From positions 1 through 39,918 of the forward strand of contig JAGBHD010000051.1 of NCBI GenBank assembly GCA_018110785.1: a stretch of DNA of 39,918 nt, in the 5' to 3' direction. This stretch comes from Oscillospiraceae bacterium. GTDB lineage: Bacteria; Bacillota; Clostridia; Oscillospirales; JAGBHD01. The stretch's first letter is position 1; each line of letters opens with the position of its first letter. Under the pieces are notes generated by a model. That model was not told the DNA's origin and ran no database searches. It was given only the letters and a program-made list of their open reading frames with translations. Positions 37,772 to 39,705 of this stretch are shown piece after piece. Position numbers and translations under genes: made by a program.

Positions 37772-38206
37772 TTACCCCTTCAAAATTTTTCTGTATGCTT
37801 TTTTAATAAAGAATATGATATGCCTTGGAATTAAGGTTACGCGCATTAAAAAAACATATGCCTTATATCCTTTATTTTTTTCACAGTCAATAAACTTCTC
37901 ACCGCGATAAAATCCCGACATTATTCCAAGTATCTGATCCCGTCTTACGCCGTATTCGATATTATAGCGATTATCGCCGCGAATAGCATATCCGTCTTTT
38001 TTTATAGCGATTATGCGGTGCATAACATATTGGCCGCTATCGCGCTTGTAAAGAACTGCATCGTTTATCTTAGGCTCTCTGGAAAGCTTTTCAATCAACA
38101 TAGCATCTTGCCGATATCTTAAAATCGGCATCATACTATCGCCAACAGGCAGTGTTAAAATCTTGCCTTCCTTTTCGAGCTGTTCTTCCATTTTTATATT
38201 AATCAC
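37772..38206 (-). CDS. S24/S26-like signal peptidase with a Ser/His dyad (S26B type)
   Basis: A 144-residue serine peptidase-like protein. The nucleophile is in LPVGDSMMPIL (S24), and the second block is QYVMHRIIAI with H63 where bacterial signal peptidase I has Lys. This Ser/His pattern is that of the S26B (SipW/ER) type. GDN follows at 77-79 (IRGDNR), another family block. The C-terminus (YVFLMRVTLIPRHIIFFI) is hydrophobic, perhaps a membrane anchor. In this cassette it may cut the precursor peptide leader. The start is a GTG that overlaps the PqqD-like gene's stop (GTGA). An ATG at 38191 is the alternative. Confidence 0.78.
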   Translation of the reverse strand: MINIKMEEQLEKEGKILTLPVGDSMMPILRYRQDAMLIEKLSREPKINDAVLYKRDSGQYVMHRIIAIKKDGYAIRGDNRYNIEYGVRRDQILGIMSGFYRGEKFIDCEKNKGYKAYVFLMRVTLIPRHIIFFIKKAYRKILKG

Positions 38207-38469
38207 TCTGCTAAAATTCCGCCTTCTTTAAGTTTGGAAATAAAGCCTTCTGCTGCTTTTTTCGCATCATCTTCCGAAATATCATATTTCGTGGTTAAAG
38301 CAGAAACTATTGCTTCAATATTAGTGTCTTCAGCTAAAAGGCTGAAAATAAATTCTCCCGTTTCATTTAAGTTTATCATGCCGTTAAATTTAGCATTATC
38401 CGCGCCCACAGCAACAGCAACCATTCTGTCTCCAACTTGGCGCACAACAAAATTATACTTAAGTTTCAT
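38203..38469 (-). CDS. PqqD-family RiPP recognition protein
   Basis: An 88-residue PqqD-like protein, a stand-alone RiPP recognition element that binds leader peptides and delivers them to modifying enzymes. It shows the family pattern: a beta-rich N-terminus (VVRQVGDRMVAVAV), LNETGEFIFSLL (residues ~34-45), a helical segment with SALTTKYDISEDDAK, and ending FISKLKEGGILAE. Length is typical. AAGGAG precedes the ATG. It is separated from the kinase gene by about 245 bp filled with palindromes, and overlaps the peptidase gene by 4 bp. Confidence 0.88.
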   Translation of the reverse strand: MKLKYNFVVRQVGDRMVAVAVGADNAKFNGMINLNETGEFIFSLLAEDTNIEAIVSALTTKYDISEDDAKKAAEGFISKLKEGGILAE

Positions 38470-38714
38470 AAATTCTCCTTCTCGCTTCGCTCGAAGTCGA
38501 AGCTAAATTACTCGCTTCGCTCGTAGCTAAATTTCCAAGGAAGCTAATCTGTGTCGGCAGTATGCCGACTTATCATTTTAAATTTCGTCTGCCTGAGGCA
38601 GACTCCGCATCTGCAAGCGTTAAGCTTGCAATTTACCTTCGCGGCAATGCCGCGAAATTTACCTGCCGCTTGAAGGCGGTAATTTAACTGTTCGCAAGGC
38701 GAACAATTTATCTG
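38470..38714. repeat. array of mutually different short palindromes with TAAATT spacers
   Basis: Between the kinase and PqqD genes about nine short inverted repeats follow one another. Clear ones are GTCGGCA/TGCCGAC (38553-38569), GTCTGCC/GGCAGAC (38587-38603), TGCAAGC/GCTTGCA (38612-38630), TTCGCGGC/GCCGCGAA (38638-38656), TGCCGC/GCGGTA (38664-38681) and TGTTCGC/GCGAACA (38689-38705). Most stems are 7-8 bp with 3-5 nt loops. On the minus strand the last four are each preceded by TAAATT, giving a ~25-bp period. The arms share no sequence between units, yet each is self-complementary. At the PqqD end a 13-bp motif (CGAGCGAAGCGAG) occurs twice (38481-38493, 38511-38523). There is no gene in it. 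Confidence 0.85.
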
Positions 38715-38741
38715 CTATTTTGCGGCTTTGCCGAAAATAGC
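38714..38741 (-). repeat. hairpin spanning the stop codon of the kinase gene
   Basis: GCTATTTT...AAAATAGC with an inner CGGC/GCCG and a TTT loop (12 pairs, one bulged G) overlaps the last seven codons and the TAG stop of the HprK-like gene. It looks like the first unit of the adjoining palindrome array, which would mean the array has entered or formed from the coding end. Confidence 0.6.
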
Positions 38742-39431
38742 ATCTGATGCTACTTCTGCGGCTTCGGGGTATGGGTTGCAATGAATTATCCAGAGTCTTG
38801 TATGCTTTAAGAGCCTATCAATAAGCTCTAAGGTTTTCATAGCAGCGATAGGATCAGAGGGAACTAAAATCTGATTCATAAGAGGATTTAAAGCCTTTTG
38901 AGGTATTATTCTCTCAATAGAATTTTCATCTGCTCTCTCTATAAAGCAAATGTCGGTAAGCTCGGTTTTAGAATTAACCTGAAAGCCTTCTTTTCCTGCC
39001 CAAGGTGTTCCATAGGCATAAGGGGTTCCATCTTCCGAAAAGCGAATAATGGGCTTGTCCCCGTTTATAATCGTCATATCCTCGCCAAAGCGCTGTTTCC
39101 ATAAAAGAGTGTGTGTTGTTTTTCCTGTTCCGCTTCGCGCCAAAAAAGCAATACCCTTATCTTTAACTGATATAACAGAACCGTGCATTAGAAAAGAATC
39201 TTTTTTAGGCAGCTGCAAAGCTAAATTCCTATAAAGACAAATGTTTTCTAAATAGCCAATAGGATATTCTCTTTCAGCGTGAAGACGCTCCTGCTGAATA
39301 TCGGCATCGGTCGCTACGACCTCGAAATCAACAGGAGCGTCCTTTTCACACTCATATTCAGCGCACTGACGAGCCGTAAATCCGTAACGATTTTTAAAAT
39401 CAATTAAGAAATCGGCTATTAAGCAGCGCAT
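38715..39431 (-). CDS. HprK/PEPCK-like kinase of the RiPP-associated type
   Basis: A 238-residue P-loop enzyme. Walker A is FLARSGTGKTTHTLL (G, K and T at about 101-106), followed by IINGDKPIIR (122-125, metal-binding Asp) and GTPWAGKEG (141-149), a typical block of this HPr kinase/PEP-carboxykinase-like family. FLMHGSVISV precedes Walker A, as in relatives. In paeninodin-type lasso clusters such a kinase phosphorylates the precursor's C-terminal Ser, so a small peptide rather than HPr is the probable substrate. AAAGGAG lies before the ATG. The final residues (IFGKAAK) fall in a palindrome. Confidence 0.82.
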   Translation of the reverse strand: MRCLIADFLIDFKNRYGFTARQCAEYECEKDAPVDFEVVATDADIQQERLHAEREYPIGYLENICLYRNLALQLPKKDSFLMHGSVISVKDKGIAFLARSGTGKTTHTLLWKQRFGEDMTIINGDKPIIRFSEDGTPYAYGTPWAGKEGFQVNSKTELTDICFIERADENSIERIIPQKALNPLMNQILVPSDPIAAMKTLELIDRLLKHTRLWIIHCNPYPEAAEVASDAIFGKAAK

Positions 39432-39446
39432 ATTTTTCTCCTTTGG

Positions 39447-39499
39447 CGAAAATTCCGAACTGAAGCCCGAAAACTCGGGCTTCAGTTTCGTTATTTTCG
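39447..39499 (-). repeat. long hairpin between precursor-like gene and kinase
   Basis: A perfect 13-bp stem (39458-39470 with 39475-39487, core CTGAAGCCCGA) with an AAAC loop is extended by a CG pair and by CGAAAAT/ATTTTCG (39447-39453, 39493-39499) across small internal loops. It starts 13 bp past the stop of the 47-residue peptide gene. No U-tract follows directly, so it is more likely a partial terminator or an mRNA-stabilising hairpin that keeps precursor mRNA in excess. Confidence 0.75.
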
Positions 39500-39512
39500 G
39501 GGTTTTCCGAAA

Positions 39513-39656
39513 TTAAGCATCTAAGTCGAGAAGAAGAGAGAAATCGTCATCGGGCATCTGAACGCCGCCACCTCCAGAAGTAGGAGATGTTGTAACAATG
39601 TCCTCATTTGCGAACTTGATTACTTCGATTTCGGGATTGGTAAAAATGTTTTTCAT
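39513..39656 (-). CDS. 47-residue RiPP precursor-like peptide
   Basis: Found by hand, with AAAGGTGGTG before the ATG. The N-terminal half has FTNPEIEVIKF and NEDIVTTS. Residues F5-x-x-P8-x-I10 fit a relaxed YxxPxL motif, the site PqqD-type proteins recognise in lasso leaders. The second half is a Gly-rich turn (SGGGGVQ) and an acidic-hydrophobic tail ending in FSLLLDLDA. It contains Ser and Thr but no Cys or Trp. It sits immediately upstream of the kinase and PqqD genes. Being a modified-peptide precursor is inference. It could also be a small regulatory or structural peptide. The TTA at 39513-39515 is its stop codon. Confidence 0.7.
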   Translation of the reverse strand: MKNIFTNPEIEVIKFANEDIVTTSPTSGGGGVQMPDDDFSLLLDLDA

Positions 39657-39705
39657 TTTTTCACCACCTTTAAAAAATATATCTAACTAATCAGCATATT
39701 TTAAC

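Follow-up and report, generated by a model that had tools for sequence, protein, structure and literature searches.

We wondered what a block of unlike palindromes might be doing between two genes of the same operon. The stretch analysed here, 39,918 nucleotides long and called the window below, is the whole of contig C9 from a 1.4 Mb, 63-contig genome of an Oscillospiraceae bacterium. In it, a minus-strand operon carries an HPr-kinase-like gene followed by a PqqD-family gene, and the 245 bp between the two are filled by hairpins and regular spacers. We think that this block is probably an orphan: a copy, decayed in part, of a mobile element built from hairpin arrays that is associated with S23 proteins (PF05635, S23 / 23S rRNA-IVP) and was inserted between the kinase gene and its pqqD. 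S23-linked arrays look like an undescribed kind of mobile element; no description of them was found in the open literature, a search that did not cover subscription journals and preprints. The array class and its dispersed copies, the compensation in the stems, the loop rule with its polarity, the neighbourhood and co-phylogeny of S23 and the boundary hairpins were all established by computation.

The window array and its relatives

That the window array belongs to a wider class is well supported. A preliminary description of the sequence had counted at least seven adjacent hairpins in 245 bp. Indeed, the region 38470-38742 holds seven with unrelated arms and regular AATTTA spacers, placed between 38553 and 38742 (Table 1) and far beyond chance (0.0 in Markov-3 sequence, 0 of 200 shuffles). 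The constant TAAATT header with a period of about 25 bp was recovered as well: four AATTTA spacers start at 38630, 38656, 38681 and 38705, at spacings of 26, 25 and 24. As in the rest of the class, hairpins with differing arms and a constant spacer are laid out in two inverted halves, and the left-half spacers GCTAAATT read AATTTAGC on the minus strand. The core resembles that of copies on another contig of the same genome, C37 (GTGTCGGCA..., TTAAATcCCGTCAG), the similarity in the alignment being partial. Next to the PqqD start, where a repeated motif had been described, two motifs are each repeated, TCGAAGCTAAATT / TCGTAGCTAAATT and CTCGCTTCGCTCGwAG. The two CTCGCTTCGCTC units at this end are no true palindromes; their other strand is GAGCGAAGCGAG, which includes the DNA mini-hairpin GCGAAGC, and this unit recurs in arrays of relatives as TGGAGCGAAGCGAGA.

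We defined an array as at least four hairpins (arm of at least 6 bp) per 200 bp. By this definition there were five arrays in 601 kb of the own genome, against 0.0 per replicate in five Markov-3 replicates of equal length, and the window array was the longest with six hairpins. Its folding z-scores were -8.3 (DNA, plus strand), -7.9 (DNA, minus strand) and -6.5 (RNA, minus strand), with 0 of 200 shuffles as good. Rfam 15 gave no match above the gathering score in six array loci, the window array included; a weak match to the structured RNA Gut-1 lay far below the cut-off and was discarded. A reading as terminators only was also rejected, given that array units carry no T runs and that their loop rules differ from those of terminators.

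The neighbourhood indicates that the array is an insertion. Among eleven related loci with a PqqD-like gene after the kinase, nine have a gap of -11 to +20 nt between the two genes and the other two have gaps of 81 and 173 nt, compared with 245 nt here. The kinase homologues end similarly but not identically, and the last kinase codons of the window may be natural or rebuilt.

Table 1. Parts of the window array and the genes on either side (positions in the window).
Feature	Position	Strand	Details
Left half array, inverted	38481..38533	-	spacers at 38502-38509 and 38526-38533, two GAGCGAAGCGAG units
Central core	38551..38607	+	hairpins 38553-38569 and 38587-38603 with TTTAAAT in between
Hairpin	38553-38569		7 bp
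Hairpin	38587-38603		7 bp
Hairpin TGCAAGC-gttaa-GCTTGCA, core edge	38612..38630	+	7 bp; falls in gap of alignment to C37 copies
Right half array	38630..38714	+	spacers AATTTAnCTG alternate with hairpins 38638-38656, ~38664-38681 and 38689-38705
Hairpin	38638-38656		8 bp
Hairpin	~38664-38681		imperfect
Hairpin	38689-38705		7 bp
Boundary hairpin	38713..38742	-	9 bp + 4 bp, loop AAA; built from kinase gene 3' end
PqqD-family peptide chaperone	38203..38469	-	PF05402, 1.1e-14; downstream neighbour of array
HPr-kinase-like protein	38715..39431	-	no Pfam hit; upstream neighbour of array

A search for further copies, set beforehand as a test that could refute the idea, turned up more arrays in the own genome and in relatives. 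The own genome, sampled as stretches totalling 601 kb and by pattern searches, holds about ten arrays of the same build (contigs C5, C8, C16, C30, C37 with four copies, C40 and C63). They fall into several spacer classes, with AATTTA-C/GCT, AATTCATG, GTGAAAT and GTTATAT as spacers. C37 (L127, L128) is a phage-like contig with terminase- and portal-like genes, and its four AATTTA-class arrays lie within about 8.5 kb. Beyond this genome, AATTCAT taken three times with gaps matched 26 of 295 genomes of the same order, with up to 31 matches per genome; a few of the matches are simple tandem repeats, and the reversed pattern had no match in the same 295-genome search. AATTTAnCTG taken three times matched at least 119 stretches in GTDB species genomes. 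Real hairpins were present at 54 of the examined loci, and the Clostridia carriers are mostly metagenome-assembled genomes from gut or rumen. Further spacer classes in relatives include AATTCA, ATTTCAC, ATATCAC, ATATCGC and ATATCGA. In one relative (G207) a single array occurs in five copies at different sites, three of which share 97.9-98.6% identity across about 142 bp but have different flanks. These data fit the mobile palindrome family that the preliminary description had listed among possible causes, in the sense that the copies are dispersed and look mobile. Its expectation that arms would not be common to many sites held, as the arms are not one shared sequence, with the correction that copies of the same array within one genome have most arms in common.

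Several smaller observations concern these arrays. Matches of the AATTTA pattern in IMG/VR were dropped as array candidates, nearly all being tandem repeats that form no hairpins. Hairpin arrays with AATTCATG are present on viral contigs (L267, L276 and other IMG/VR loci), with several in a 5-kb stretch of L267 alone. AATTTA arrays of three different genomes (L053, L149, L152) are flanked by a common AACCCACTATGACA(C)TTTC, which might belong to the element as its outer portion or represent a further dispersed repeat. At L079 (1880-2160) a 118-bp hairpin unit beside an S23 gene is present in three near-identical repeats, a possible recent expansion. Some outer ends (L034, L090, L044) coincide with a promoter-like TTGAAA/TTGACG-17-TATAAT, so that the array would start at the transcription start.

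Compensated stems and a loop rule

How can arms differ from unit to unit and still pair? In the AATTCA class the foot of the stem, TG...CA, is nearly fixed and the inner pairs comprise all four Watson-Crick types. Across 75 distinct TGA units, 97% of the cells were paired, compared with 66% when the 3' letters were reshuffled, and double changes numbered 116 against 26.7 in the shuffles, a value never reached in 1000 of them. Something does keep the changing arms complementary, as had been proposed. The order of slots is kept across genera (e.g. TGAAATC/GATTTCA, TGAAAGC/GCTTTCA, TGAGTGC/GCACTCA). Since same-genome copies have most arms in common, the arms drift with compensation and are not random in every copy.

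The loops follow a rule of their own. We read them in 264 distinct hairpins of related arrays, on the strand where the hairpin is flanked by ATT[CT]A. The closing pair was C-G in 214 and G-C in 14; of 159 triloops, 68 were GNA and five TNC, and of 105 tetraloops, 55 were GNNA, often with T or C in second position, and one was TNNC. On the strand that points outward from the element centre, the conserved loop is thus C(GNA)G or C(GNNA)G, and its polarity flips between the two half arrays. Both d(cGNAg) and d(cGNNAg) are exceptionally stable DNA loops. The GNNA loops divide into 29 GNRA and 26 GNYA, compared with 12 and two in terminators of the same genomes. These terminators show no preference for GNA either (7/61 versus 68/159 in arrays, p=6e-6). 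Because the half arrays are inverted, no single RNA carries the favoured loops in both halves. The flip in polarity and the disregard for the RNA GNRA rule thus favour a structure at the DNA level, which argues that the hairpins are recognised in single-stranded or cruciform DNA. By reasoning, we also ruled out UNCG RNA tetraloops read from the other strand, as their register would break the stem. The window copy fits the loop rule only in its C-G closing pairs and its two GCGAAGC units.

These results bear on the idea that a chain of mRNA hairpins was selected at this very site, where it would uncouple translation of kinase and PqqD or protect the transcript; the preliminary description had offered a similar chain that sets the ratio of the two messages. 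In favour of this, the genes on both sides of the array run in the same direction within one operon, and its RNA folds well (z -6.5). Moreover, the kinase and PqqD genes overlap or nearly do so in most relatives, so an insertion must change the messenger, and there may be a local regulatory effect. As an explanation of the array we nevertheless find selection of an RNA device doubtful: arrays of the same build occupy many unrelated sites, their loops ignore the GNRA rule, the strand with the stable loops flips between halves, and the kinase-PqqD pairs of the examined relatives do not have the array.

S23 proteins as partners of array classes

We asked whether a protein accompanies the arrays. 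Each of the two PF05635 genes in the own genome directly adjoins an array. Automatic detection placed an array within 400 bp of 11 of 30 S23 loci, and a few more were seen by eye and at contig edges. Conversely, S23 occurs in four of the 80 listed AATTTA loci, in all four within 14-340 bp of the array, and it is present in 16 of 17 genomes with AATTCAT arrays versus 71 of 160 without an array (p=6e-5). In a tree of 39 S23 proteins the groups correspond to spacer class and not to host family, with 13 label changes compared with 23.8 after shuffling (0/200 as low). All eight ATTTAGC proteins fall together, as do the ATTTCAC and ATATCGC pairs, and five of six AATTCA proteins do so (support 100/99) although they come from four host families. 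It follows that there is a cognate S23 for each array class. This pairing gives the S23 family a concrete, testable nucleic-acid partner. Neither S23 gene of the own genome is of the spacer class seen in the window array, which makes that array an orphan.

For decades, S23 proteins, which are four-helix bundles, have been familiar from the intervening sequences of rRNA. The array-linked proteins have the S23 fold, with 2RLD as their closest solved relative (1e-27 from a single sequence) and a profile match to Xanthomonas 2GSC as well. They are thus of the same family (PF05635/TIGR02436) as the proteins of 23S rRNA intervening sequences in Coxiella, Leptospira and Xanthomonas. Unlike those, their genes stand beside hairpin arrays near protein and tRNA genes, at loci that lay outside 23S rRNA in all examined cases; the window array, too, sits between kinase and pqqD and not inside a 23S rRNA gene. 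S23 / four-helix bundle proteins are still described as without known function (PMC4990558), and PF05635 proteins have been reported to resemble Avd of diversity-generating retroelements (DGRs) (PMC10053308). Separately, S23 genes of another clade (L064, L065, L069, L077, L087) are flanked by 7-9 nt tandem repeats (TGCATTC, GTGAATA, GAGAAATTA, GGAATGCGGAGTGC) in place of hairpin arrays.

Boundary hairpins and proposed routes of movement

The outer ends of arrays directly abut a longer hairpin that is often specific to the site and in many cases consists of the neighbouring gene's own 3' end together with its stop codon. Among 37 boundary hairpins of at least 9 bp, a long open reading frame (ORF) enters 20, and in 13 of these the stop codon lies inside the hairpin. 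The comparable figure for own genes with a hairpin across or up to 90 bp after the stop is 22/131 (p=2e-5). At L111 the gene ends in GTAGTAGATTATGCGAAGTAG, followed by TTCGCATAATCTACTAC, the exact complement of the last 17 coding bases before the stop. The window copy has the same feature: its last hairpin is flush with the array and overlaps the kinase gene end, with the stop codon (38715-38717) in its right arm, confirming an overlap that had been described before. At seven rlmD genes with an array and S23 (L016, L031, L032, L080, L084, L293, L294; the S23 gene of L294 is cut short at the edge of the analysed sequence, which includes just its likely first codons), a fold-back hairpin stands at the gene's own end. 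Its minimum free energy is -22 to -29 in six of them, while the hairpin of L293 is shorter (-15.7). At three further rlmD loci (L291, L300, L301) the hairpin is accompanied by array remnants at best, and array-free rlmD sites, two from the genus of L293 and L294 included, have none (-14.0 or weaker). As a side observation, rlmD, which encodes a 23S rRNA methyltransferase, is a recurrent home of array plus S23, in at least three spacer classes and different families.

We propose the following course of events. A full element consists of two inverted half arrays around a short core, with hairpins and spacers of one class alternating in each half; for the window copy this class is AATTTA with C/GCT. 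Spacer, hairpin geometry and outward-strand loop are conserved and the stem letters free. A cognate S23 gene stands beside some copies only, most copies, that of the window included, lacking one. S23, which like its solved relatives is probably a pentameric ring, would bind the hairpins by shape, loop and spacer when the DNA is cruciform or, presumably, single-stranded. Enzymes of host replication and repair would next deliver the element to another hairpin, either a terminator or the 3' end of a gene, where fold-back copying may build the boundary hairpin from host sequence. The same copying, along with selection for folding, would keep mutating arms complementary.

Host enzymes come into question for the chemistry because no reverse transcriptase turned up in array-rich G207, G253 and G016, and no Y1 transposase in array-rich G207 (97% complete), G129 (99%), G253 and G127. 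A Y1 transposase is present in the own genome (one), G010 and G016, and a universal need for either enzyme is not supported. More tentatively still, S23/IVP proteins could be trans-acting factors of transposase-free mobile elements whose hairpins are recognised by shape and loop, moved by host replication and repair, and self-diversified through boundary hairpins made by fold-back copying. Avd might then be a branch of the same hairpin-recognising family.

Several points weigh against a mobile S23-associated element. Neither a strain-level empty/filled pair nor a target duplication (not checked systematically) nor an excision product was seen, and we therefore infer the active movement of arrays; S23 as its agent is a further inference. 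About half of the sampled S23 loci are without a clear hairpin array; most of these fall in a clade of their own, several of them with 7-8 nt tandem repeats. An ATTTAGC-class S23 was not found in the window's own genome (97% complete). The copy in the window is degenerate, and its hairpins in the right half retain the C-G closing pair but not the GNA loops. The contrast between GNYA and GNRA reaches only p=0.033 (Fisher), and since hairpins from related genomes are not independent, such p-values are optimistic and significance is approximate. Finally, a hairpin lies across the stop codon in 22 of 905 own ORFs, and some overlap is expected from terminators that start at stops. This control, and the fact that several boundary hairpins accompany the array at many sites, weakened the notion that a host gene end is copied anew to make each boundary hairpin.

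Could mutation alone suffice? On this view, palindromes would arise by chance and template switching (quasipalindrome correction) would preserve their perfect pairing, so that neither an element nor a partner protein is involved. Compensatory change and hairpins made from host gene ends do fit fold-back copying, but this would leave unexplained why spacers are conserved, why the two halves are inverted and why near-identical copies are dispersed, as well as the loop rule and the S23 co-phylogeny, and we hold such a neutral origin to be unlikely.

We also considered a non-autonomous retroelement, DGR-like or group IIC-like, with reverse transcriptase supplied in trans. DGR target hairpins need stem structure and GC content but no particular sequence, have a critical short G..A loop of the GRNA type, and one is drawn with the target gene's stop codon boxed inside; group IIC introns also target stem-loops (PMC3240598). 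Our arrays share with them the structure-not-sequence stem, the G..A loop, the stop-codon overlap and the resemblance between Avd and S23 (PMC3240598, PMC10053308), and the own genome has one reverse transcriptase. In contrast to the single DGR hairpin there are many here, the loops are GNA or GNNA and not GRNA, T or C being frequent in the second tetraloop position, and no reverse transcriptase was found in the array-rich genomes named above. No template/variable repeat (TR/VR) pair or adenine mutagenesis was seen, though TR/VR repeats were not searched for. Overall, we judge this route quite improbable.

A repeat of the repetitive extragenic palindrome/bacterial interspersed mosaic element type (REP/BIME), moved by a REP-associated tyrosine transposase (RAYT, TnpA-REP) or an IS200/IS605 (Y1) transposase, would likewise give short, dispersed, mostly intergenic palindromes in clustered copies with a small partner gene beside some, and the own genome has its one Y1 transposase, yet this origin is highly improbable: the adjoining gene is S23 and not a Y1 HUH nuclease, the Y1 enzyme was not found in four array-rich genomes, the arms are far more variable, the arrays consist of two inverted halves with conserved spacers and loops, and the GTAG or CGTC tag next to the hairpin that defines REP/RAYT (PMC3733652) is absent at the hairpin feet in the window.

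The proposed S23-associated element also differs from other small elements. To our knowledge, double-hairpin and small palindromic mitochondrial elements have no partner protein. They are mobile-looking hairpins between genes, like the arrays, but have stem sequences common within a family (placozoan GGCGCC types, PMC7813641). Miniature inverted-repeat transposable elements are similarly small, non-coding, dispersed and of inverted symmetry. The arrays, unlike these, have no sequence-conserved end beyond spacer and hairpin shape, no parent transposase was identified, and no target duplication was found, though this was not tested systematically. If true, our reading would add a mobile element that inherits structure rather than sequence, with a stem and loop rule close to that of DGR target hairpins, and would account for hairpin arrays that have gone unannotated in Clostridia genomes from gut and rumen.

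The host operon itself (37772-39660, minus strand) resembles one for a ribosomally synthesised and post-translationally modified peptide. In addition to the HPr-kinase-like protein and PqqD, it contains a short peptide ORF ending in GGGGVQMPDDDFSLLLDLDA (~39513-39655), a signal-peptidase-like protein and a nucleotidyltransferase (NTP_transf_5).
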